DNA of 64,000 nucleotides from an uncultured Holophagaceae bacterium (GTDB lineage Bacteria > Acidobacteriota > Holophagae > Holophagales > Holophagaceae), in contig CAIZZF010000026.1 of assembly GCA_903937385.1 (NCBI GenBank), positions 124,001 to 188,000 on the forward strand, written 5' to 3'. Shown here piece after piece: positions 35,275 through 46,704 of the stretch. The first letter of the stretch is position 1, and every line of letters starts with the position of its first letter. Below the pieces are notes generated by a model. It was not told the origin of the DNA, did no database searches, and saw only the letters and a program-made list of their open reading frames with translations. Both the position numbers and the translations under genes were made by a program.

Positions 35275-35334
35275 GTGTTCGCTCTGCCGCCCCCGACCCT
35301 ACCGGATCGGGGGTTCCTGTTTCTGAGGTTCCCC
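35275..35334 (+). promoter_or_regulatory. Possible proBA leader: proline-rich in-frame segment over a hairpin
   Basis: Directly before the chosen proBA start lie 20 in-frame codons from a GTG, with 5 prolines, three of them consecutive. The same bases form a hairpin with a 7-bp stem: CCCCCGA at 35290-35296 pairs with TCGGGGG at 35307-35313, around a 10-nt loop. A ribosome pausing on the Pro codons would unfold it. No stop codon separates this segment from proBA, so it is not a textbook leader peptide, and C-rich runs in GC-rich DNA give Pro codons by chance. Confidence 0.3.
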
Positions 35335-37521
35335 ATGTCTGACCAGCACCCCACTGCAGTGTCCTCGGGCCGGAAGACCCCGATCCAGACTCGGCCCGAG
35401 CTGAGCAGGGCCCGGCGCATCGTCATCAAGCTGGGCACCCAGGTGGTGGTGGACGCTGAGGGCCGTCCGGCCCTCGGCCGGCTCTACGGGCTCATGGAGG
35501 CCGTGGCCGCCATGGCGGCGCGCGGCTGCCAGCCGGTGCTGGTCTCCTCGGGCGCCGTGGGCCTCGGCGCCCGCCGCCTGGGCATCCACCCTCGGGAGCT
35601 GGCGGACAAGCAGGCCAGCGCCGCCGTGGGCCAGGGTGAGCTTATGTCGCTGTACCAGGACGGCCTCGGGCGCCTGGGCTTCCCCGCGGCGCAGGTGCTG
35701 CTCACGGAAGACGACTTCGCGGACCCCACCCGCCACGCCAACCTGAAGCGCACCCTGGAGACCCTGCTCTCCCTGGGCACCGTCCCCGTGCTGAACGAGA
35801 ACGACACGGTCTCCACCCTGGAGCTGGAGCGCCCCGCCGAGGACCGCACCCCGATCTTCAGCGACAACGACCACCTCTCGGCCCTGGTGGCCGCCCACCT
35901 GGACGCGGACCTGCTGGTGCTGCTCTCGGACGTCACGGCCCTGCACACCCGCAACCCCGGCCTGGACCCCACGGCGGAGCCCATCCTGGATGTGCCCTAC
36001 GCCAGCCAGCCGCCTGTGGAAGTGCAGGGCAGCAACGGCCGGGGCCGCGGCGGCATGGCCAGCAAGCTCACGGCGGCGCGGCTGGCTGCGGCCCAGGGCG
36101 TCCCGGTGGTGATGGCCTCGGGCCTGATGCCGCAGGTCCTCGAGCGCATCCTGGCGGGCGACCCCGTGGGCACCCTCTTCGCGCCGAACCCCGACCCCGC
36201 GGCGCCCAGCCACCCCATCCTGGCGGACAACCCCGTGCGGCCCCTGGCTCAGGCGGCCCGGGAGGCCTCCCGGCGGCTGGCAGTCACCGACGGGGCCACC
36301 CGGAACCACGCCCTCGCCGCACTGGCGGACGTCCTGCTGCGGAAGACCCACCGCATCCTGGCCGCCAACGAGCGGGACCTGGATGCGGCGGTGAGCCACA
36401 TCAGCAACTCGGCCTACCAGCGGCTGCGCCTGGACGAGGCCAAGCTGCGCGAGATGGCCGCGGGCGTGCGCGCCGTGGCGGCCCTGCCGGATCCGCTCCA
36501 CCACGTGCAACTGCGCCGGAGCCTGGACGAGGGCCTAGAGCTGACTCGCGTGAGCTGCCCCCTGGGCGTGCTGGGGGTGGTCTTCGAGTCCCGGCCCGAC
36601 GCCCTGATCCAGATCAGCGCCCTCGCCCTGAAGAGCGGCAACGCCGTGCTGCTCAAGGGCGGCCACGAGGCGCTGCACTCCAACGCCGCCCTGCTCTCGG
36701 CGGTGCAGGAGGCCCTGCAGGCCGTGGGCCTGCCCGTGGCGGCGGTGCAGGGTCTGGAGGACCGCGCCTCGGTGGAGGCCCTGCTGAGCCTGCCGGAGCT
36801 GGTGGACCTGGTGATCCCCCGGGGCTCCAACGCCCTGGTGAAGCGCATCCAGTCCGCCACGCGAATCCCCGTTTTGGGCCATGCCGAGGGCATCTGCCAC
36901 ATGTACCTGGACGCCACCGCCGACCCGACGATGGCGGTGGCCCTGGTGCGGGACGCCAAGCTGCAGTATCCCTCCGCCTGCAACGCGGTGGAGACCGTCC
37001 TGGTGCACGCCGCCGCGGCGCCGCGCCTGCTGCCCCTGCTCGCCGCGGACCTGCGCAGCCACCAGGTGGAGCTGCGGGGCTGCGCCCAGTGCCAGGCGCT
37101 GGTGCCAGACCTGGCCGCCGCCACGGCCGAGGACTGGGACACGGAATACGGCGAGCCGATCCTGGCCATCAAGGTGGTCCGGGACCTGGACGAGGCCCTC
37201 GCGCACATCCGCCACCACGGCAGCGGTCACACCGAGGCCATCGTCACCGAGGACCCCGCCGCCGCGGCCCGGTTCCTGGCCGAGGTGGACGCCGCCGGGG
37301 TCTACCACAACGCCTCGACCCGCTTCGCGGACGGCTTCCGCTACGGCTTTGGCGCCGAGGTGGGCATCAGCACCGGCCGGATCCACGCCCGGGGTCCCGT
37401 GGGGCTGGAGGGGCTGCTGAGCCACCGCTACCTGCTGCGGGGCCAGGGCCAGCGCGTCGCGGACTACGCGGGACCCTCCGCCCGGCCCTTTCTCCACCGG
37501 GATCTGCCCATTGAGTCATAA
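35335..37521 (+). CDS. proBA: Fused glutamate 5-kinase / gamma-glutamyl phosphate reductase (P5CS-like)
   Basis: A 728-residue bifunctional enzyme for the first two steps of proline synthesis (glutamate to gamma-glutamyl phosphate to glutamate semialdehyde). Residues about 20-275 are the kinase: RIVIKLGTQVVVDAEG, VSSGAVGLGARRLG, VPVLNENDTVST and GRGGMASKLTAA. Residues about 300-728 are the reductase, with the catalytic Cys549 in YPSACNAVETVLVH and the nucleotide loop VIPRGSN. There is no PUA domain after the kinase, unlike E. coli ProB. Most bacteria encode two proteins, while plants and animals have this fusion as P5CS. The start at 35335 follows a GAGG site. Proline feedback sites cannot be judged. 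Confidence 0.95.
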   Translation: MSDQHPTAVSSGRKTPIQTRPELSRARRIVIKLGTQVVVDAEGRPALGRLYGLMEAVAAMAARGCQPVLVSSGAVGLGARRLGIHPRELADKQASAAVGQGELMSLYQDGLGRLGFPAAQVLLTEDDFADPTRHANLKRTLETLLSLGTVPVLNENDTVSTLELERPAEDRTPIFSDNDHLSALVAAHLDADLLVLLSDVTALHTRNPGLDPTAEPILDVPYASQPPVEVQGSNGRGRGGMASKLTAARLAAAQGVPVVMASGLMPQVLERILAGDPVGTLFAPNPDPAAPSHPILADNPVRPLAQAAREASRRLAVTDGATRNHALAALADVLLRKTHRILAANERDLDAAVSHISNSAYQRLRLDEAKLREMAAGVRAVAALPDPLHHVQLRRSLDEGLELTRVSCPLGVLGVVFESRPDALIQISALALKSGNAVLLKGGHEALHSNAALLSAVQEALQAVGLPVAAVQGLEDRASVEALLSLPELVDLVIPRGSNALVKRIQSATRIPVLGHAEGICHMYLDATADPTMAVALVRDAKLQYPSACNAVETVLVHAAAAPRLLPLLAADLRSHQVELRGCAQCQALVPDLAAATAEDWDTEYGEPILAIKVVRDLDEALAHIRHHGSGHTEAIVTEDPAAAARFLAEVDAAGVYHNASTRFADGFRYGFGAEVGISTGRIHARGPVGLEGLLSHRYLLRGQGQRVADYAGPSARPFLHRDLPIES

Positions 37522-37640
37522 ATCAAATTAATCAAAGCATAAATCCAGATAACTTGAGCTGGGGGTCTGAACTGTTAACCTTATAGAGATACTTGTCGCC
37601 CAACGACTGTCGGGGCGGCATTTTCTTACTGGGAGGTACC

Positions 37641-38951
37641 GTGTCCACCCTTCTCTCCCCTGAGACTCCGGCCTATGCCGTTCCCGAGGCCAACCTCGTC
37701 CCGGTGAGCAACCACCTGGGCAGCATGCTGGCCATCCCACCCTCCCGCATGTTCCTCATCAACAAATCGCTCAAGGTCTTCCAGGAGAAGCAGCCCGGCG
37801 TGCCGGTCTTCGACGCCAGCCAGGGCGACGGCGGGGCCTCCCTGCCCGGCGTGCCCGAGGCCCTGCTCGACCGCGCCTTCGAGCTGCAGAAGCAGCACGG
37901 CACCGCCTACGACATGCCCTTCGGCACCGACGCCTACCGGAAGGCCGTGGCCGAGCAGTACTGGAAGCTGGCCCCGGAGACGGGCTGGGGACCGGCCAAC
38001 GTCATCGGCACCCAGGGCGGCCGCGACGGCCTCGTGAAGGCCTACCAGGCCATGCTGGCCCTGGGCCACGGCCGCCAGGGCGATGTCATCGTCGTCAGCC
38101 GCGTGCCCTGGATCAGCTACAACTGGGGTCCCTATGGCATCGGCGCCAACGTCATGTGGGCTCCAGGCCGCCCCGAGGAGGCTTGGTCCTACTCGGAAGA
38201 GGGCATCCAGGCCTGCGTGGATGAAGCCGCGAAGCAGGGCCGCAAGGTGGCGGGCCTCGTCATCACCAGCCCCGACAACCCCACGGGCCAGACCCTCACG
38301 CTGGAGCGCCAGATCGCCCTGGGCCGGGCGGCCCTGGAAGCGGGCGTGGCCTTCGTCCTCTACGACTGGATGTATCACGCGGTCACCGACGGCGGGATGA
38401 CCGATGTGAACGCGCTGCTGCTCGCCTTCGAGCCCGCGCTCCGCAACCGCATCATGGTGCTGGACGGCATCACCAAGTGCCTGGGCGGCTCCAACATCCG
38501 CAACTGCCACCTGCTGGCCCCCGAGGCCGTGGTGAAGATGATCGTGGCCCAGGCCTCGCACACGGTGATCCCGTCCTTCTTCAGCCTGGCCGTGGCCATG
38601 GCCGCCTATGAGAAGGGCCTGCTCAACGCCGCCGCGCCCATCATCGAGCCCACCCGCGCCAGCCGCGCCTGGCTGAAGGCCTACCTCAAGGAGCAGGGCC
38701 TCACCCACATCATCGGGCAGGGCTACTACGCCTTCATCAAGGTCGCCGACTCCCTGGCGGCCAAGGGCTGGGCCGACTCCGAGCCCATGGGCCAGTACCT
38801 GGCCGAGAACCACGGCGTGGCCATCGTGCCCGGCGCCTTCTTCAGCCCCTATGGTGGCGAGTGGGTCCGGTTCTCCTACGCCACCCCCCGCGAGCGCACC
38901 CAGGGCGCCGCCGAACGCCTCGTCGCCGCGCTGAATGACTTGAAGAAGTGA
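37641..38951 (+). CDS. Class I/II PLP-dependent aminotransferase
   Basis: A 436-residue aminotransferase of the aspartate/aromatic fold type I. It has TQGGRDGLVKAYQAM for the PLP phosphate region, ITSPDNPTGQTLT (the SNPxNPTG-like motif), YDWMYHAV with the PLP-stacking and Asp-containing strand, and the Schiff-base Lys in DGITKCLGGSNIR. A C-terminal Arg in WVRFSYA is placed to bind the substrate carboxylate. The start is GTG at 37641 with GGGAGG upstream. It lies between proBA and the ligase-M20 fusion on the same strand, but with 119- and 107-nt spacers, so separate promoters are likely. A GC-rich stem (GTCGCCC with GGGCGGC) lies in its leader. The amino donor is unknown. Confidence 0.87.
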   Translation: MSTLLSPETPAYAVPEANLVPVSNHLGSMLAIPPSRMFLINKSLKVFQEKQPGVPVFDASQGDGGASLPGVPEALLDRAFELQKQHGTAYDMPFGTDAYRKAVAEQYWKLAPETGWGPANVIGTQGGRDGLVKAYQAMLALGHGRQGDVIVVSRVPWISYNWGPYGIGANVMWAPGRPEEAWSYSEEGIQACVDEAAKQGRKVAGLVITSPDNPTGQTLTLERQIALGRAALEAGVAFVLYDWMYHAVTDGGMTDVNALLLAFEPALRNRIMVLDGITKCLGGSNIRNCHLLAPEAVVKMIVAQASHTVIPSFFSLAVAMAAYEKGLLNAAAPIIEPTRASRAWLKAYLKEQGLTHIIGQGYYAFIKVADSLAAKGWADSEPMGQYLAENHGVAIVPGAFFSPYGGEWVRFSYATPRERTQGAAERLVAALNDLKK

Positions 38952-39058: not shown

Positions 39059-41869
39059 GTGTTTGACCTGAATGCCTTCGTCGAGAAGTTCCAGCTGGCC
39101 CGGCGCACGGCGCTGGAGACGCGGCCCGGCGGTGGGCTCTGCGGGCTCGAGCTGGAATGGAACCTGGTGGACCCGCAGTTCCGTCCCCTGCTCACGGTGG
39201 GCACCGGCCCCGATCACATGTCCTTCGTGGACCACCTGCGCACCAAGGTGCTCTCGCCCTGGACCGAGGAATACCACCAGCTCGAGGTCTTCCACTGGAT
39301 GATCGAGTGGGTCACCCGGCCCTATCACACCCCCAAGGGCGCCGTGTATGAAGGGCGCATGCTGGAAGCGGCCCTCATCAACGCGCTGGCCAAGACCAGC
39401 CGCGCCTTCGGTGAGCCGATCCACTACTGGCACGGCAACCTGCTCGTGCTGCCCAAGATCGGCCCCGACTGCGTGCCCGAGTCCTGGCACCTGGCCAAGC
39501 GCCGCTACCTCCAGCGCTGCGTGGAGCTCTACGGCACCGAGCTGGCCACGGCGGGCACCCACTCCAACCTCAGCCTGCCTGAGCCCATGCTGGCCTGGGA
39601 CTTCATGCACCTGCCGGCCTCAGAGCGCGGCGAGATCCACCTGGACGACTACAAGAACCAGGTCTACATCACTGGCACCCGGCTCATGCGGGCTTTCGCG
39701 GCCCTGTTCATCTCGGCCAGCGCCAGCACGCCCCTGCAGGCTTCGGAGGAGAACGGCGAGCCCGTGGTGCGGCTCACGCCCTTCGAGTCCGTGCGCAACC
39801 TGACCTTCCCCAACCCGCCCTCCCTGGACGTGCCGGACCTGAACCGCAGCCACCCGGACTACCTGCGCCTGTCCTACGACCTGGTGCGCCGGGGCGTGCG
39901 CTTCGGCAACAACAACTGGATCCCCGTCCGCGCCCGCTCCCAGGCGGAGCCGGTAGAGCGCCTCATCCAGGTCACCAGCGACCAGCTGCACGACATCTAC
40001 GCCCGGGGCCTCTTCGCCGCCGGCGAGACGCGGAACGTCGAGGACATGGCGGCCCAGATCGAGCGCCAGAACCTCTTCGCCCGCATCGACCTGCCCATGG
40101 CCCGCGTGGAAGTCCGCACGGATGATCCCTGCCATGACCTGGCGCTCGACGTCGCCAACCTCACCCTGAAGCACCTGCTGCTGCTCCGCTTCTACGCCGA
40201 CTCCGACTTCGCCCGGAGCTTCCGCTACGACGCCGAGGACATCAAGCGGGCCCGCCGCAACGAAGAGCTGGCCGCCCGGGAAGGCCTGCGCGCCACCATC
40301 GAGAACCCCCTCACCGCCAAGCCCATCACCATGCGCGCCTTCCTGGCCTGGACGCTGAACGAGATGCGCCCCCTGGCCGAGGCCCTGGGCATGTGGGAGG
40401 ACCTGCAGCCCCTCCGCGACATGGCCGACGGCGCCCCCAGCACCGCCGAGCGCATCCGCCAGCACCTCAAGAGCAAGCTGGGCACCTCCGAGATCGTGCC
40501 CCCGGACATGCTGGTGGCCCTGGCCGAGGCCCGCAAGGATCAGGTGCGCAACGAGGTCCAGACCGTCACGGCCCACCTCTCCGACCTCGGCAAGGAAGAA
40601 GGCAAGCTCCGGGACTTTCTGGAGCACGCCCGCGAGGAAGTGCACACGGATCCCCAGGCGCCCATCCGCTTCCGCCCCAAGCCCGAGGCCCTGGTGGACG
40701 CGGCCTATCCGGACAAGACCAGCGAAGTGCTGGCCATGTCCCAGCGCCTGGTCCGCATTCCCAGCGTCACCGCCTGCCCCGAGGAGCGCCTCCCCGAGAT
40801 CCACCGCGCAGCGACCCTCATCTACGACTACCTGCGCAACCACGGCGTGCCCGTGGTGAGCTTCGACCAGGGTCCCTTCCCTTCCCTGCTGGCCCACTTC
40901 CCTGGTGGCGAGAAGGCCCCGGCCATGCTCTGCGGGCACTTCGATGTGGTGGCGCCGGAGCCCGACGACAGCCAGTTCGACCCCCGCATCGAGGGCGACT
41001 ACCTCTGGGGCCGCGGCGCCGCGGACATGAAGACCGTGGTCTCCACCTACCTCGTCTGGATGAAGGACACCCTCAAGAAGGGCGCGCCCTACCCCCCCGT
41101 GAACCTGCTGCTGGTGGGCAACGAGGAGAACGGCGAGCTCGATCCCATGGGCACGCCGCACGTGCTGAAGCAGCTCAAGGAGCAGTGGGACTACGAGCCC
41201 AGCTTCTTCGTGGCCGGCGAGCGCACGGGCGAGAAGGGCACCGAGCTCTGGGGCGAGGTCTGCACCCAGAACCGCGGCGTCCTGCGCTTTGAGCTCATCG
41301 CCCACGGCACCCGCGGCCACAGCGGGCTGGCTGGCGGCACCGACCTGACCGAGCGCGTGCTCAGCGCCCGCGAGGCCCTGCGCGAGCTGTTCGCCAAGCA
41401 CCTCACCCTCAAGTCCGCGGATGGCTGGCAGTCCCTGGCCCGCTTCGCCTACGTCCAGGTGGGCACCCCCGGCATCTTCAACATCACCGCGGACCGCGGT
41501 GCCATCGGCGTGGAGATCCGGCCCATCCCCCAGGATGATGTTTCCAGGATGCGCGCCGACATCGAGGCCCTGGCCGCCGAGCGTGGGCTGGAGTTCATTC
41601 CCTCCGCCTGGGAAGCCGGCGTGGCCTGCGATCCCGAGAACCCCTGCCTCAAGGCCCTGCTGGCCGGCATCGAGGCCGCGGGCGGTGACGTCCGCATCGG
41701 CCGCAAGGGCGCCGGCACCTCCGCCCGCTTCGCCCCCGGCGGCCAGGGCGTGGTCTGGGGCCAGACCGGCATCGGCCCCCACGCCGCCAGCGAGCGCCAC
41801 TACATCCCCAGCATCGACCCCTACTACCGCGCCCTGGATGCCTTCGCAGCCGAGCTTAAGAAGAACTGA
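39059..41869 (+). CDS. Fusion of a GCS2-type carboxylate-amine ligase domain with an M20 metallopeptidase
   Basis: A 936-residue chain. Residues about 1-510 resemble the GCS2 family of glutamate-cysteine ligases and YbdK-like carboxylate-amine ligases: LCGLELEWNLVD near the start, IHYWHGNLLVLPKIGP, ATAGTHSNLSLPEP, MARVEVRTDDPCHDLALDV. These use ATP to form gamma-glutamyl or similar amide bonds. A helical linker (about 510-560) leads to an M20 peptidase (about 565-936). Its metal-site residues are present: His627 and Asp629 in CGHFDVV, Asp656 in GAADMK, Glu689-Glu690 in NEENGE and His908 near the end. M20 enzymes hydrolyse amide bonds (DapE, ArgE, carboxypeptidase G2). The GTG start has GGAG 5 nt upstream. 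The substrate is unknown; an enzyme that builds and trims gamma-glutamyl-type amides is one reading. Confidence 0.87.
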   Translation: MFDLNAFVEKFQLARRTALETRPGGGLCGLELEWNLVDPQFRPLLTVGTGPDHMSFVDHLRTKVLSPWTEEYHQLEVFHWMIEWVTRPYHTPKGAVYEGRMLEAALINALAKTSRAFGEPIHYWHGNLLVLPKIGPDCVPESWHLAKRRYLQRCVELYGTELATAGTHSNLSLPEPMLAWDFMHLPASERGEIHLDDYKNQVYITGTRLMRAFAALFISASASTPLQASEENGEPVVRLTPFESVRNLTFPNPPSLDVPDLNRSHPDYLRLSYDLVRRGVRFGNNNWIPVRARSQAEPVERLIQVTSDQLHDIYARGLFAAGETRNVEDMAAQIERQNLFARIDLPMARVEVRTDDPCHDLALDVANLTLKHLLLLRFYADSDFARSFRYDAEDIKRARRNEELAAREGLRATIENPLTAKPITMRAFLAWTLNEMRPLAEALGMWEDLQPLRDMADGAPSTAERIRQHLKSKLGTSEIVPPDMLVALAEARKDQVRNEVQTVTAHLSDLGKEEGKLRDFLEHAREEVHTDPQAPIRFRPKPEALVDAAYPDKTSEVLAMSQRLVRIPSVTACPEERLPEIHRAATLIYDYLRNHGVPVVSFDQGPFPSLLAHFPGGEKAPAMLCGHFDVVAPEPDDSQFDPRIEGDYLWGRGAADMKTVVSTYLVWMKDTLKKGAPYPPVNLLLVGNEENGELDPMGTPHVLKQLKEQWDYEPSFFVAGERTGEKGTELWGEVCTQNRGVLRFELIAHGTRGHSGLAGGTDLTERVLSAREALRELFAKHLTLKSADGWQSLARFAYVQVGTPGIFNITADRGAIGVEIRPIPQDDVSRMRADIEALAAERGLEFIPSAWEAGVACDPENPCLKALLAGIEAAGGDVRIGRKGAGTSARFAPGGQGVVWGQTGIGPHAASERHYIPSIDPYYRALDAFAAELKKN

Positions 41870-41983: not shown

Positions 41984-43858
41984 TCAGAAGTCCTGGTTCT
42001 CGGTGAGGCGGGTACCGTCCTTGGCGAAGGCTTCGAGGTAGTGGGCGATGCGGCCTTCGGCGGTCTTGAGGTCGTCGAGGCTGAGGTTGAGGTTCAGCAG
42101 ATCCACGTACCAGGGAGCCTTGAGGGGGCTCTGGACGTAGGTCTGCACGATGGCCCGGGCGATGGGCAGGGTGGTGTCCTTGGAGTCATCGTGGACATCG
42201 CGGTTGCTGGCCTGGCGGAGCTTGGCGTATTCCTCCTTCAGCAGGCGGGCAAAGAGGGCCTGGGTGAAGGGCTCCCCCTCGACGCAGCCGGTCTCGGCAT
42301 CGCCCTCGGTGAGCAGGGCGCCCTTGTGGATCCACTCCCAGAGGATGGACAGGCGGATCTCGCCCGTGGCCATATCCTCCATGAGGTAGAGGACGTCGTC
42401 ATTGCCGAAGAAGTCCGCGGGCTTCAGGGCGGCGGCCTGGAAGCCCCGCAGGAAGGCGTTGCCATACTGCAGGGCCACGGAGAGCAGGTCCCGGGCGCCG
42501 GCGATGGTGCGGGGGGCGGGCTCGAGCAGCATCAGCCCGGCGGCATCCGCGGGCCCGTAGGTCAGGGCCGGGAAGGCGCGGCCCAGCTGGTTGGCCTGGC
42601 CCACCTTCTCCCAGACCGGCCGGACGATGTGGACCATCTTCCAGTGGGCTACCCACTTGCCGGAGGCGCCCTCGCGCTGCTCGCGCTCGGCCCCGGCCAC
42701 GGCCCGCTTCATGCTCGCGGCCACGCCCTCGGCCGAGCCCACGGGGATGTTGGGCTCCATACCGCCCTGCCAGAGGGTGCAGCGGCCGTTGCGGTCCGGC
42801 GTGTTCATGGCCCGGCGCACGCGGTCCTCGTAGTTGCGCATGTAGCCGTAGGTCATGGTGATGGCCTGGATGTTGGGGTTGACGAACTCCTGGTCCCAAG
42901 CCAGCGCGTCCGAGACGCTGTTGATGTAGTCCCAGCGGCCCGTATTGAAGCCCACGAAGTGCGGGGAGAGGGCGGCGCGGATCTCCATGAGCTGGAAACA
43001 CTGCTCCAGCTGCTCCACCAGCACGTAGCACTTGATGGTGCCCACGGGCAGGCCCAGGTGACCCTCCAGGGCCAGGATGAAGTCGTTCCAGAGGGCTGCG
43101 TCCTCGGCGGTCTGGGTCTTCGGCAGGTAGATGACGATGCTGCGGCCCGCGGCCAGGAGGCGCTCGTGGTTGTTCACGACGTAGAGCACCAGATCCGAGA
43201 TGGAGGCTGAGAAGCCGCGGCCATCCTGGCGGATGTGCCGGTCATCCAGGTGCAGGCCCCGGCAGCGGAAGATGACGGTGGTGAAGTCCAGCTGCTGGCG
43301 CCAGTCGGCGATGATGGGGTGGCCCAGGAAGCCCTGGGCCCAGGTGTTCATCTCCCCGGCCACCTCCTCGGCGACCTCCAGGAAGAGCGGGTCCCGGTCG
43401 ATGGCCAGCTTGAGGTTGCGGTGGTTGTCCAGGGACATGGTGTCCACCTGGCCCAGGGCGTCCTCGCCGTCGAACATCCAGCCGTCGGCGCCGGAGAGCA
43501 GCGCGTAGGCCACGTTGCGGATGCCCGAGCGCACATCAGAGCGAGGCTTGGTGGCGGGGCCCGTGCCCTGGATCCACTGGCGCTGGAGGTCTGGCGGGAT
43601 GATGGCGCCGTCGAAGTTGCCGGACCGGGCATCGGCCACCTTGATCTGGGTGCCCGGGATCAGGGCCTCGGGATCCAGGAAGGCGATCCGTTCGCCTCGC
43701 TCCGCGCGCCGCTTGCGCAGGGCGGTGCGGGCCGCCATCCGCTCGTGGCGGCGGTGGTTGAGGGGCGCCAGCACTTCCAGGGCCGCCAGGGCCGCCGGGG
43801 TATAGACATCGGGATAGGACGTCAGGACCGCATCGCGGAATTCCAGGGTGGAAGTCAT
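41984..43858 (-). CDS. aceB: Malate synthase
   Basis: A 624-residue malate synthase that condenses glyoxylate with acetyl-CoA to malate in the cytoplasm. It is of the A-type family, somewhat longer than E. coli AceB (533). Recognisable parts are the LDPEALIPGTQIKVADARSG opening, the GWMFDGEDALGQV substrate loop, TIKCYVLVEQL, FVGFNTGRWDYI and the catalytic-base segment YLMEDMATGEIRLSILWEWIH, with Asp495 as likely general base. No isocitrate lyase is in the window; with the glycolate/lactate-type permeases upstream, it may serve glycolate or glyoxylate assimilation. The ribosome site AGGAGC directly follows a terminator T-tract, so expression probably depends on read-through or conditional termination. 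Confidence 0.93.
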   Translation of the reverse strand: MTSTLEFRDAVLTSYPDVYTPAALAALEVLAPLNHRRHERMAARTALRKRRAERGERIAFLDPEALIPGTQIKVADARSGNFDGAIIPPDLQRQWIQGTGPATKPRSDVRSGIRNVAYALLSGADGWMFDGEDALGQVDTMSLDNHRNLKLAIDRDPLFLEVAEEVAGEMNTWAQGFLGHPIIADWRQQLDFTTVIFRCRGLHLDDRHIRQDGRGFSASISDLVLYVVNNHERLLAAGRSIVIYLPKTQTAEDAALWNDFILALEGHLGLPVGTIKCYVLVEQLEQCFQLMEIRAALSPHFVGFNTGRWDYINSVSDALAWDQEFVNPNIQAITMTYGYMRNYEDRVRRAMNTPDRNGRCTLWQGGMEPNIPVGSAEGVAASMKRAVAGAEREQREGASGKWVAHWKMVHIVRPVWEKVGQANQLGRAFPALTYGPADAAGLMLLEPAPRTIAGARDLLSVALQYGNAFLRGFQAAALKPADFFGNDDVLYLMEDMATGEIRLSILWEWIHKGALLTEGDAETGCVEGEPFTQALFARLLKEEYAKLRQASNRDVHDDSKDTTLPIARAIVQTYVQSPLKAPWYVDLLNLNLSLDDLKTAEGRIAHYLEAFAKDGTRLTENQDF

Positions 43859-43963: not shown

Positions 43964-45625
43964 TCAGCTCACGGCTGGCGCGGTGGGCAGGATCCAGGGG
44001 ATGACAAAGGCTTGCAAGAGGACAATGACTATCACCATACCCAACAGGATCATCGAATACTTGAGCGTCTTCCGGAAGATATCGGTTTCCTTGCCCACCA
44101 GACCCACGGCCGCGCAGGCCACGGCGATGGACTGCGGGGAGATGAGCTTGCCCATGACGCCGCCGAAGAGGTTCGCGGAGGTGGTGAGCACGGGGTTCAG
44201 GCCCAGCTGGATGGCGGTGACCTGCTGGAGCTTGCCGAAGAGGGCCGCCGACGAGGTCACCGAGCCCGTGAGGAACACACCAATGAGGCCGATGATCGGG
44301 CTGAAGATGGGGAAGGCCATGCCCGTGAGCACCGCCATGGCCAGGCCCAGGGTGAAGGACATGCCCGAGTAGTTGGCCAGGAAGCCGAGGCCGATGACCG
44401 AGGCCAGGGTGATGAGGGCGAAGCGCAGCTGCATGAAGGTCTTGGCGAACACCCGGGCACCGATGGCGGGGGAGATCTTCAGCACGACCATGGAGAGCAG
44501 GGCGGAGAGGAACATCGCCGTGCCGGGGGCCGTGAGGTACTGCCACTTGTAGCTGGCGGCGTAGGCGGCGGGTTTGGCGACGATGGGCGCGGCCTTGAAG
44601 ACGATGCCGTCCAGCCCGGGCCACTTGGGCACGGCCAGGAACCAGTGGTGAGTCTTCTCGGCATAGGCCTTGAAGGCGGGGGTGCCCCAGATGCCCATGA
44701 CGACCATGAGAATGAGGAAGGGCGACCAGGCCTTGAAGACCTGACCCGCGGTGTGGGCGGTGGCGTTGGCGGTCGCGTCAGCCGCATCGTTCTCGAAGGT
44801 CCAGATGGTCTTCGGCTGCCAGATCTTGATGAAGCCCACGAGGCAGACGAGCGACACCACCGAGGCGGTGATGGCCGGCAGCTCGGGCCCGAACCAGGTG
44901 GAGAGCACCAGGGAGGCCGCGGCGTAGCTGACACCCGCTACCAGGGCCGCGGGCAGCACTTCCTTGGCCTTCTGGAAGCCCACCATGACCACCACCATGA
45001 AGAAGGGGATGATCAGGGCCATGATGGCCATGTCGATGCCCACGGCGCGGGCCATGGTGGTGGCGGGAATCCCGGTCACGGTCGACATCATGATCGTGGG
45101 CACACCCACGGGGCCGAAGGGCACGGGGGGCGTATTGGCCACGAGGCAGATGACCGCGGCAGTCAGTGGCGGGAAGCCCAGACCGATGAGCATGGCCGCG
45201 GCCACGGCCACGGGCGCACCCTGACCGGCCACGCCCTCCATGAAGGCAGAGAACGAGAAAGCAATCAGCAGGGCCTGGATGCGGCGATCCGGGGACAGGG
45301 ACGAGATGGAGCTCTTGATGACCTCGAACTGGCCCGACTCGACCGTGAGGTTGAACAGGAACACCGCCGTGAGGATGATCCAGCCGATGGGGAACAGGCC
45401 CGTCAGCATGCCCAGGGCCGAGGCCGAGAGCGCTGCGGTGATGGGCATGCGGTAGACCAGCACGCTGATGACGATGGTGAGGGCCAGCGTGAGCAGGCCT
45501 GCCACATGGCCCTTCATCCGCTTCACCGCCAGGGCCCAGAACAGGAAGAAGATGGGGATGGCCACCACGAGGGCCGTCAGCAGCAGGCTCCCGTTCAACG
45601 CGGCATAGTTCTGATTCCAGGGCAT
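43964..45625 (-). CDS. LctP-family L-lactate/glycolate permease 1
   Basis: A 553-residue polytopic permease of the LctP family (lactate and glycolate:H+ symport). It starts with MPWNQNYAALNGSLLLTALVV, as LctP proteins do, and has 12-14 hydrophobic segments. Conserved signatures include GVAGQGAPVAVAAAMLIGLGF, NTPPVPFGPVGVPT, and the C-terminal GSVTSSAALFGKLQ with MGKLISPQSIAVA. The ATG at 45625 has AAGGT upstream; an in-frame upstream extension lacks family similarity. It is divergent from a LysR regulator and lies upstream of malate synthase, which favours glycolate or lactate as substrate. Confidence 0.9.
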   Translation of the reverse strand: MPWNQNYAALNGSLLLTALVVAIPIFFLFWALAVKRMKGHVAGLLTLALTIVISVLVYRMPITAALSASALGMLTGLFPIGWIILTAVFLFNLTVESGQFEVIKSSISSLSPDRRIQALLIAFSFSAFMEGVAGQGAPVAVAAAMLIGLGFPPLTAAVICLVANTPPVPFGPVGVPTIMMSTVTGIPATTMARAVGIDMAIMALIIPFFMVVVMVGFQKAKEVLPAALVAGVSYAAASLVLSTWFGPELPAITASVVSLVCLVGFIKIWQPKTIWTFENDAADATANATAHTAGQVFKAWSPFLILMVVMGIWGTPAFKAYAEKTHHWFLAVPKWPGLDGIVFKAAPIVAKPAAYAASYKWQYLTAPGTAMFLSALLSMVVLKISPAIGARVFAKTFMQLRFALITLASVIGLGFLANYSGMSFTLGLAMAVLTGMAFPIFSPIIGLIGVFLTGSVTSSAALFGKLQQVTAIQLGLNPVLTTSANLFGGVMGKLISPQSIAVACAAVGLVGKETDIFRKTLKYSMILLGMVIVIVLLQAFVIPWILPTAPAVS

Positions 45626-45739
45626 GGGATGACCTTTCAACGGAACAGTGGAGGGGGGGGGCATCGGACAAAGTCGATGCGTGAGTCCTGAAATTCCAAT
45701 CTTCCTTCGACCCTGATTCTTGACCAGATGGTAATTTCT

Positions 45740-45766
45740 GATGCTTAGCATCGGGTTTTCCGATGC
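45740..45766. promoter_or_regulatory. Inverted repeats in the divergent LysR/permease spacer
   Basis: GCATCGG-gtttt-CCGATGC (45748-45766) is a perfect 7-bp dyad. It overlaps a second one, GATGC-tta-GCATC (45740-45752). Two more half-sites, GCATCG at 45661-45666 and CGATGC at 45675-45680, lie closer to the permease. This spacing of related half-sites between a LysR gene and its divergent target is what LysR-type regulators usually bind. Confidence 0.6.
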
Positions 45767-45807: not shown

Positions 45808-46704
45808 ATGGATGTCCGCACCCTCTCCACCTTCTGCGCCGCCGCCCGGACGCTGAACTTCACCCACGCCGCCGCCGGTCTGGGCTATGCCCAGTCCAGC
45901 GTCACGGCCCAGATCAAGAGCCTGGAGGAGGACCTGGGAACGGACCTGTTCAACCGGGTGGGCAACCGCCTGGAGCTGACAGAGCCCGGGGCGCGGTTCC
46001 TGGTGTATGCGGAGCGCATCCTCTCCCTGACTCACGAGGCCAAGGCCTCGGTCCTGGAGGAGGAAGGTGTGGGCACCCTCCGCTTCACGGGACCCGAGTC
46101 CGTCTGCACCTACCTCCTGCCCCCTCTCCTCCGAACCTTCCGGGCGAAGTTCCCCCGGGTGCGGCTGCAGTTCCAGCCGGGCTTCGTGCGGGACTTCAAG
46201 CGCCAGGTGCTGGAGGGCGCCGTGGACTTCGCCTTCATCCTGGAGGAGCCCTTCCCCTCCAAGACGCTGGCCGTGGAGCGGCTCCGGGACGAGGAGATCC
46301 TCATCCTCGCCGCCCCCTCCCACCGGTTGGCCTTCGCCCCCAATGTCTCCGCCCAGGACCTCATGGGTGAGGAGGTCCTGCTCAAGGCCCTGGGCTGCAG
46401 CTACCGCAACCAGTTCGAGCGGCAGCTCATCACCGCGGGGGCCCACCCCGGGGACTTCACCGAGTTCCAGGGCGTGGAGACCATCAAGCGCTGCGTGATG
46501 GAGGGCCTGGGCGTCGCGCCCCTGCCACGCATGGCCGTGGAAGCCGAGCTCCGGGCCGGCACCCTGGTGGCCCTGCACTGGGATGGCCCAGCGATCCTGA
46601 TCTCCTCCCACCTGGTGTGGAACCCCGCCCGGCACCTCAGCGCCGCCGAGAAGGCCTTCTTCCAGCACGTACGCGAGCAGCTGAAGGCCGTGCCTGTGGC
46701 TTAG
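45808..46704 (+). CDS. LysR-family transcriptional regulator
   Basis: A 298-residue LysR-type regulator. The N-terminal winged helix-turn-helix (residues 1-60) has the family pattern LSTFCAAARTLNFTHAAAGLGYAQSSVTAQIKSLEEDLG. The effector domain (about 88-295) has two lobes (LRFTGPESVCTYLLPPLLRTF; GEEVLLKALGCSYRNQFERQL; VETIKRCVMEGLGVAPLP). It is divergent from the LctP-family permease, with inverted repeats between them, so it probably controls the permease and malate synthase in response to an organic acid. The ATG start sits right after the regulatory spacer. It is convergent with glycerate kinase over a 579-nt repeat-rich gap. Confidence 0.93.
   Translation: MDVRTLSTFCAAARTLNFTHAAAGLGYAQSSVTAQIKSLEEDLGTDLFNRVGNRLELTEPGARFLVYAERILSLTHEAKASVLEEEGVGTLRFTGPESVCTYLLPPLLRTFRAKFPRVRLQFQPGFVRDFKRQVLEGAVDFAFILEEPFPSKTLAVERLRDEEILILAAPSHRLAFAPNVSAQDLMGEEVLLKALGCSYRNQFERQLITAGAHPGDFTEFQGVETIKRCVMEGLGVAPLPRMAVEAELRAGTLVALHWDGPAILISSHLVWNPARHLSAAEKAFFQHVREQLKAVPVA

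Follow-up and report, generated by a model that had tools for sequence, protein, structure and literature searches.

What use could a cell make of a single polypeptide that joins the fold of a ligase forming amide bonds to that of a hydrolase cleaving them? One locus of an uncultured Holophagaceae bacterium raises this question, and within the window, that is the whole stretch of 64,000 nucleotides that was analysed, the gene and its parts are laid out as follows:

39059 to 41869, plus strand: fused gene for a GCS-fold ligase / M20 amidohydrolase, 936 aa, GTG start
39059 to 40573, plus strand: N-half, residues ~1-505, glutamate-cysteine-ligase fold (from predicted fold and motif residues)
40574 to 40702, plus strand: hypervariable linker, residues ~506-548 (from the alignment of relatives)
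40703 to 41866, plus strand: C-half, residues ~549-936, M20 amidohydrolase (from Pfam, fold and active-site mapping)

We confirmed that this ORF is a genuine fusion of an N-terminal ligase-fold half and a C-terminal M20 half. It runs as a single open frame without any break from the GTG at 39059 to the stop at 41869, and this start is supported by the relatives, which have an ATG in the corresponding position (MFDLNAFVEK). Since full-length relatives occur in tens of independent genomes (80 loci were collected), among them G033 and G020, whose genomes each consist of a single contig, and G063 and G096, where it lies on one long contig, C1, the fusion is not an assembly artefact, and chance is excluded as the source of the two-half architecture.

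The N-half was shown, by structure prediction and motif comparison, to possess a predicted glutamate-cysteine ligase fold together with the catalytic residues. Matches to both GCS and M20 families were already present for the full-length model (pLDDT 77), and the N-half modelled alone (530 aa, pLDDT 84.8, pTM 0.90) aligned best with 1tt4 from Salmonella (Z 29.7, 341 residues, rmsd 3.0), followed by YbdK 1r8g (Z 28.8), GshAB 3ln7/3ln6 (Z 25.9/24.6), GshA 3nzt/1va6 (Z 24.6/24.2) and plant GCL 2gwc (Z 21.8), with Dop/PafA (Z about 16-20), yeast GCL (16.5) and glutamine synthetases (13-15) further down. As the fold family includes Dop/PafA, glutamate-amino acid ligation is not its sole chemistry. 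Seven residues, E31, E33, E76, E83, H168, E351 and R353, are invariant over 40 aligned full-length relatives and one 51%-identical relative from another acidobacterial family, and correspond to E27, E29, D60, E67, H150, E328 and R330 of GshA, which we take to be catalytic there. These equivalences were set by motif and not by hhalign, with the GshA positions read from E. coli gshA: E76 and E83 keep the spacing of 7 seen between D60 and E67 of GshA (D60 being Glu in the fusion), H168 sits in GTHSNLSLP, whose GshA counterpart is GVHYNFSLP, and E351-x-R353 forms the ExR motif.

By sequence, a YbdK profile aligned with the N-half in hhalign (probability 96.7, 315 columns), YbdK was barely detected (E 0.077) when the PDB sequences were searched with a 40-member fusion profile, and NCBIfam returned a faint cyanobacterial GshA match over residues 348-469. 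Single profiles of plant-like GCL, CBS-GCS2 or GshA gave nothing informative against the N-half in hhalign, GshA alone being unaligned. The Pfam GCS2 (PF04107) cut-off was not reached, the window protein being missed and 4 of 40 members matching at all (best E 0.021), and on the whole 936 aa Pfam recognised Peptidase_M20 alone. The ligase half is therefore hidden from automatic annotation, because the profile libraries recognise the M20 half only. Among the matches listed, and fragments aside, no N-half occurred without its M20 partner. A different GCS-fold fusion was noticed in other acidobacteria, namely proteins of ~650 aa with a weak GCS2 match and, as read by eye, a C-terminal CBS-like part (L107 1351-3285, L108 412-2361 and L109 331-2322).

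The C-half, in turn, was shown to combine an M20 fold with the residues of both metal sites, with the catalytic Glu and His, and with the DapE-type clamp. It scored 61.1 bits against Pfam Peptidase_M20 (PF01546, cut-off 24.6), which 40 of 40 members match, and its fold agreed over the whole length with 2rb7 (Z 33.0) and with DapE (32.6 and below). In sequence as well as in fold, the characterised M20 enzymes nearest to it are DapE, ArgE and LysK; NCBIfam gave many sub-threshold DapE/ArgE matches, the best at 84.8 bits against a cut-off of 284, and it stayed below the DapE equivalog cut-off both there and at 55.5 against 361.8 bits. Fold and active site place each half within a known superfamily, and neither passes specific equivalog or GCS2 thresholds. 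By hhalign, H66, D68, D99, E133, E134, E162, H193 and H348 of E. coli DapE map to H627, D629, D656, E689, E690, E721, H754 and H908, of which the metal ligands (H627, D656, E690, E721, H908) as well as the catalytic D629, E689 and dimer-domain H754 are all invariant. In H. influenzae DapE, the proximal carboxylate of the substrate has been modelled on R258, T325 and N245, and H194, contributed by the other chain, is catalytic (PMC5919655). Once the numbering is shifted by one residue to that of E. coli, hhalign places these four positions at R821, T887, N808 and H754, again all invariant, and N244, a contact of DAP's far carboxylate, at F807. Because the alpha-carboxylate clamp R821/T887/N808 is invariant, the group released is probably an alpha-amino acid and not a plain amine; and because the clamp is kept while the N244 position is F807, the bond cut is probably the N-acyl amide of an alpha-amino acid other than DAP, as far as the mapped residues indicate.

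The domain boundary falls near residues 505-549. In the relatives' alignment, invariant positions amount to 146 of 505 in the N-half and 100 of 388 in the C-half, as compared to 3 of 43 in the linker, and mean pairwise identities are 0.72, 0.71 and 0.48, respectively. Down to 51% identity the active-site residues of both halves stay unchanged, and the linker alone varies. Furthermore, dN/dS of the window against five Holophagaceae relatives is 0.11-0.23 for the N-half and 0.14-0.30 for the C-half; both halves are under purifying selection and neither is decaying. The preliminary description had proposed one chain made of an amide-forming ligase fold and an M20 peptidase, and both parts agree with our results: the GCS2-type character of the N-half is borne out by its fold (1tt4 and YbdK leading) and its GshA-type residues, a departure from the GCS2 fold having been looked for in the predicted structure and the GCS fold found, and the metal ligands of the M20 half are indeed kept, all five of them. 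Its suggestion that the chain might make and edit, or recycle, a gamma-glutamyl conjugate is plausible. Its further suggestion that the peptidase fold might act as a transferase is unsupported, since the full hydrolytic set (D629, E689, H754 and the five ligands) is invariant.

The fusion does not travel alone, and the gene that accompanies it lies directly upstream:

37641 to 38951, plus strand: partner class I/II PLP aminotransferase, likely GTG start at 37641 (the listed ORF begins from a TTG at 37593)

A class I/II aminotransferase gene precedes the fusion on the same strand in 72 of the 80 loci, or 72 of the 75 with enough upstream sequence. Five of the eight loci lacking it are contig ends, and for the remaining three an orthologue was found elsewhere in the genome in two cases and a fragment at a contig end in the third. 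Hence each fusion-bearing genome examined has the aminotransferase (one as a contig-end fragment), nearly always adjoining. Its canonical PLP residues K278, D241, Y244, N212, R286 and R409 (P0002 numbering) are invariant, and its evolutionary distances correlate with those of the fusion at r 0.93-0.95; taken together, the distances of aminotransferase, N-half and C-half co-vary at r 0.92-0.95, a part of which is due to shared ancestry. The reverse dependence does not hold: 7 of 12 aminotransferase-bearing Anaerolineae genomes have no detectable fusion, so that the aminotransferase can act without a glutamyl cap, and among these aminotransferase-only genomes no neighbour gene was found in common. 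Strict interdependence was thus rejected; the fusion seems to need the aminotransferase, not vice versa. Naming its substrate from protein families was also discarded, as the best NCBIfam match, GntC, is too weak (100.7 bits against a cut-off of 415).

Whole or partial matches to the fusion were found in 35 of 37 genomes of the Geothrix genus, to which the window belongs, and the two genomes without it are 71% and 80% complete. In 16 other searched genomes of the same class the full-length fusion was not found, and of seven other acidobacterial families a single one possesses it. Beyond Acidobacteriota, the loci belong to numerous Anaerolineae, to other Chloroflexota bins and to an Aminicenantes record; when 150 Anaerolineae genomes were sampled evenly, 5 proved to carry the fusion. 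With identities of 57-66% from one phylum to another, this patchy range suggests that the fusion has been transferred horizontally.

The wider neighbourhood is less constant. Neighbour comparison revealed neither a third conserved module gene nor any further gene consistently linked to fusion and aminotransferase, and among the conserved neighbours of the fusion no small carrier-protein gene was seen. One frame of the window is given here for context only:

35275 to 37521, plus strand: proB-proA fused frame, upstream of the aminotransferase

The proBA genes lie upstream in about 17 Holophagaceae loci and are not at that position in others, a PLP decarboxylase gene lies upstream in 18 Holophagaceae loci, and in this family the usual order is decarboxylase, aminotransferase, fusion, with or without proB and proA between the first two. 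A link to aromatic amino acids or amines via this decarboxylase was dismissed, because neither L014, a close relative of the window, nor the loci outside Holophagaceae showed the decarboxylase gene. A LysE-type exporter gene directly follows the fusion in L043 and L077. As read by eye, aromatic-pathway genes precede and arginine genes follow in L071 and L081, the arginine genes being argS and argH in L071 and argH and apparent argG in L081; argH was confirmed. None of these neighbours, be it decarboxylase, proBA, exporter or aromatic/arginine genes, is common to all loci. As for proBA itself, the window encodes it as one P5CS-like frame of 748 aa (663 bits, below the equivalog cut-off of 796.75); in many relatives proB and proA are two abutting ORFs, and they are fused within some Holophagaceae, like the eukaryotic P5CS layout. 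On the other side of the fusion, a divergent malate-synthase-like protein of 624 aa (41984-43858, minus strand; TIGR01344 247.6 bits against a cut-off of 594.5) is encoded beside a lactate/glycolate-type permease (43964-45751, minus strand) and a LysR regulator (45808-46704, plus strand), and this group adjoins the fusion in about 24 Holophagaceae loci.

We tentatively propose, with somewhat less than even confidence, that the fusion is a bifunctional enzyme, both ligase and hydrolase of gamma-glutamyl-amino acids, with the aminotransferase as its dedicated partner. The N-half would use ATP to activate the gamma-carboxyl of L-glutamate and form an amide between this and the alpha-amino group of X, an amino acid or oxo-amino acid; the glutamyl cap would protect X during aminotransferase action, or keep the aminotransferase product capped; and the M20 half would finally hydrolyse that amide, releasing the amino acid and glutamate. 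That the donor would be glutamate and the linkage gamma is deduced from the GCS fold family only. A ligase and a hydrolase acting on one bond would waste ATP unless an intervening step or regulation parts them, and two versions of the proposal may be envisaged: either X is capped, transaminated and uncapped, so that glutamate would shield it in the manner of the protecting groups of LysW or DAP synthesis, or X is transaminated, capped and later uncapped, the conjugate being a store or active compound as with trypanothione synthetase-amidase. The former would explain why ligase, aminotransferase and hydrolase travel together, the latter would better explain aminotransferases without the fusion, and the genomes carrying the aminotransferase without the fusion weaken a strict three-step pathway.

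A narrower form of this proposal and its rivals carry less weight. Carrier-free amino-protection, in which free glutamate would mask an amino acid via its gamma-carboxyl during transamination and the M20 half would unmask it, is in itself unlikely; if true, it would stand as a further kind beside acetyl/succinyl and LysW protection and would possibly yield an unusual or diamino acid. That gamma-glutamyl-X is instead the end product, a solute, antioxidant or signal formed by the N-half and turned over by the M20 half, with the aminotransferase making X, is conceivable though on the improbable side. Opposing synthetase and amidase domains in one chain have a precedent (PMC2784880), an aminotransferase found alone is what one would expect if it merely supplied X, and the LysE-type exporter gene of L043 and L077 would fit as well. 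However, this exporter is unconserved in other loci, and DapE, ArgE and LysK are biosynthetic deacylases, not turnover switches. Alternatively, the N-half might be a true glutamate-cysteine ligase and the M20 half might degrade or recycle the thiol peptide, which we regard as quite unlikely. GCS enzymes are indeed the closest solved folds, and a PF04107 search of the 37 Geothrix-genus genomes matched neither the fusion nor any other protein, so that the fusion could be the only such ligase there; yet this reading leaves the aminotransferase partner unexplained, the fusion too stays below the PF04107 cut-off, and the hosts come, presumably, largely from anaerobic habitats, where we take glutathione to be uncommon. 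Least probable is that the N-half is no ligase or a Dop-like hydrolase and the protein a two-domain degrader of gamma-glutamyl peptides: although the hydrolytic Dop, with its GS/GCS-like fold, does match the N-half, most true ligases score higher (Z 22-30), the GshA-type equivalents are invariant (including D60, Glu here), and purifying selection on the N-half is strong.

Could the module replace the acyl-protected step of DAP/lysine or ornithine/arginine synthesis? Its three chemistries are the same as in DapD-DapC-DapE or ArgJ-ArgD-ArgE, and the proB-proA, argH, argG-like and argS neighbours would fit; nevertheless, we consider it very unlikely. For DAP, replacement of the acyl branch is rejected in Geothrix, where genome G000 has its own dapD adjoining a DapC-like aminotransferase gene, with dapB and a DapE-like M20 gene in the same region. 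DapL was above cut-off in none of 22 genomes, and three carriers have a DapL-like gene. Four fusion-bearing Anaerolineae (G061, G067, G070 and G071) showed no DapL-level, DapD or Ddh match. For arginine, ArgC is absent from 16 of 46 Anaerolineae/Aminicenantes carriers versus 4 of 32 non-carriers, OTC being retained almost throughout, and this had suggested replacement (Fisher p 0.035, which is weak as the genomes are related). However, ArgC is present in 4 of 4 Geothrix genomes tested and in 30 of the 46 carriers, and in most ArgC-less carriers an ornithine aminotransferase gene adjoins OTC, so that these have another way to ornithine and replacement is unsupported. As both tests reveal other routes, no standard amino-acid pathway clearly needs the module. 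Two ArgC-family genes were counted in 15 of 32 non-carriers versus 1 of 46 carriers (genomes again not independent), and the second gene may reflect LysW-type routes. Seven loci of Anaerolineae without ArgC (L145, L146, L147, L148, L150, L153 and L156) contain ornithine carbamoyltransferase followed by a class III ornithine aminotransferase, and also an alanine-dehydrogenase-like and a CoA-transferase/hydrolase-like gene; such loci might serve a proline/glutamate-to-arginine route or else the catabolism of arginine.

The gamma-glutamyl ligase/hydrolase thus remains our preferred reading. Whatever X may be, the architecture is conserved and apparently uncharacterised: two halves, opposite in their chemistry, have both stayed intact during long evolution, across phyla and with one fixed partner gene. 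Substrate identity would reveal a new amino-group protection or a novel gamma-glutamyl metabolite of anaerobic soil and sediment bacteria, and as there are cultured hosts, e.g. Geothrix fermentans, the fusion is testable now.

How, then, does the fusion compare with known systems? Searches of PDB, Pfam and NCBIfam returned no whole-length relative, PDB sequences matching the M20 half only, YbdK aside, and nothing on a GCS-M20 protein was found in the open-access literature, in line with the preliminary description, which knew of no characterised enzyme with such a layout. The anatomy given there stands; what it had overlooked are the partner aminotransferase, the taxonomic range, and the trypanothione synthetase-amidase as a bifunctional precedent working in opposite directions. 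With YbdK, GshA and GshAB (PF04107/PF04262) the N-half shares every catalytic motif residue as well as the fold, which aligns over ~340-420 residues (Z 22-30), but it is longer, falls below Pfam cut-offs and, fragments aside, was found only fused to M20 among the matches listed. Likewise, the C-half shares with DapE, ArgE and LysK the fold (Z 29-33), metal ligands, catalytic Glu, dimer-domain His and alpha-carboxylate clamp, but stays far under every equivalog cut-off, has F807 at the HiDapE N244 position, and is fused to a ligase.

In the LysX-LysJ-LysK route, the gamma-carboxyl of the terminal Glu of LysW serves as protecting group, and LysX is an ATP-grasp enzyme. A ligase, an aminotransferase and an M20 hydrolase, and an amino group masked by a glutamate gamma-carboxyl, would thus be common to the LysW system and our proposal, in contrast to the ligase fold, which differs from LysX, to the aminotransferase, which is class III in LysJ and class I/II here, and to the carrier protein and kinase/reductase, neither of which is consistently linked to the fusion. 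The proposed logic resembles that of LysX-LysJ-LysK or DapD-DapC-DapE, except that the protecting group would be free glutamate and that a single chain would both attach and remove it. Glutathionylspermidine and trypanothione synthetase-amidases (Gss/TryS) combine an ATP-grasp ligase with a cysteine amidase. They share with the fusion the principle of one chain in which an ATP-dependent amide ligase and an amidase act in opposite directions, as established for trypanothione synthetase-amidase (PMC2784880), but the domains here are GCS fold and M20, and Gss/TryS are not known to have an aminotransferase partner, so the analogy is functional only. The bifunctional amide synthetase-hydrolase is therefore known as an idea, whereas the pairing of a GCS-fold half with an M20 half, next to an aminotransferase partner, is not, as far as tested.
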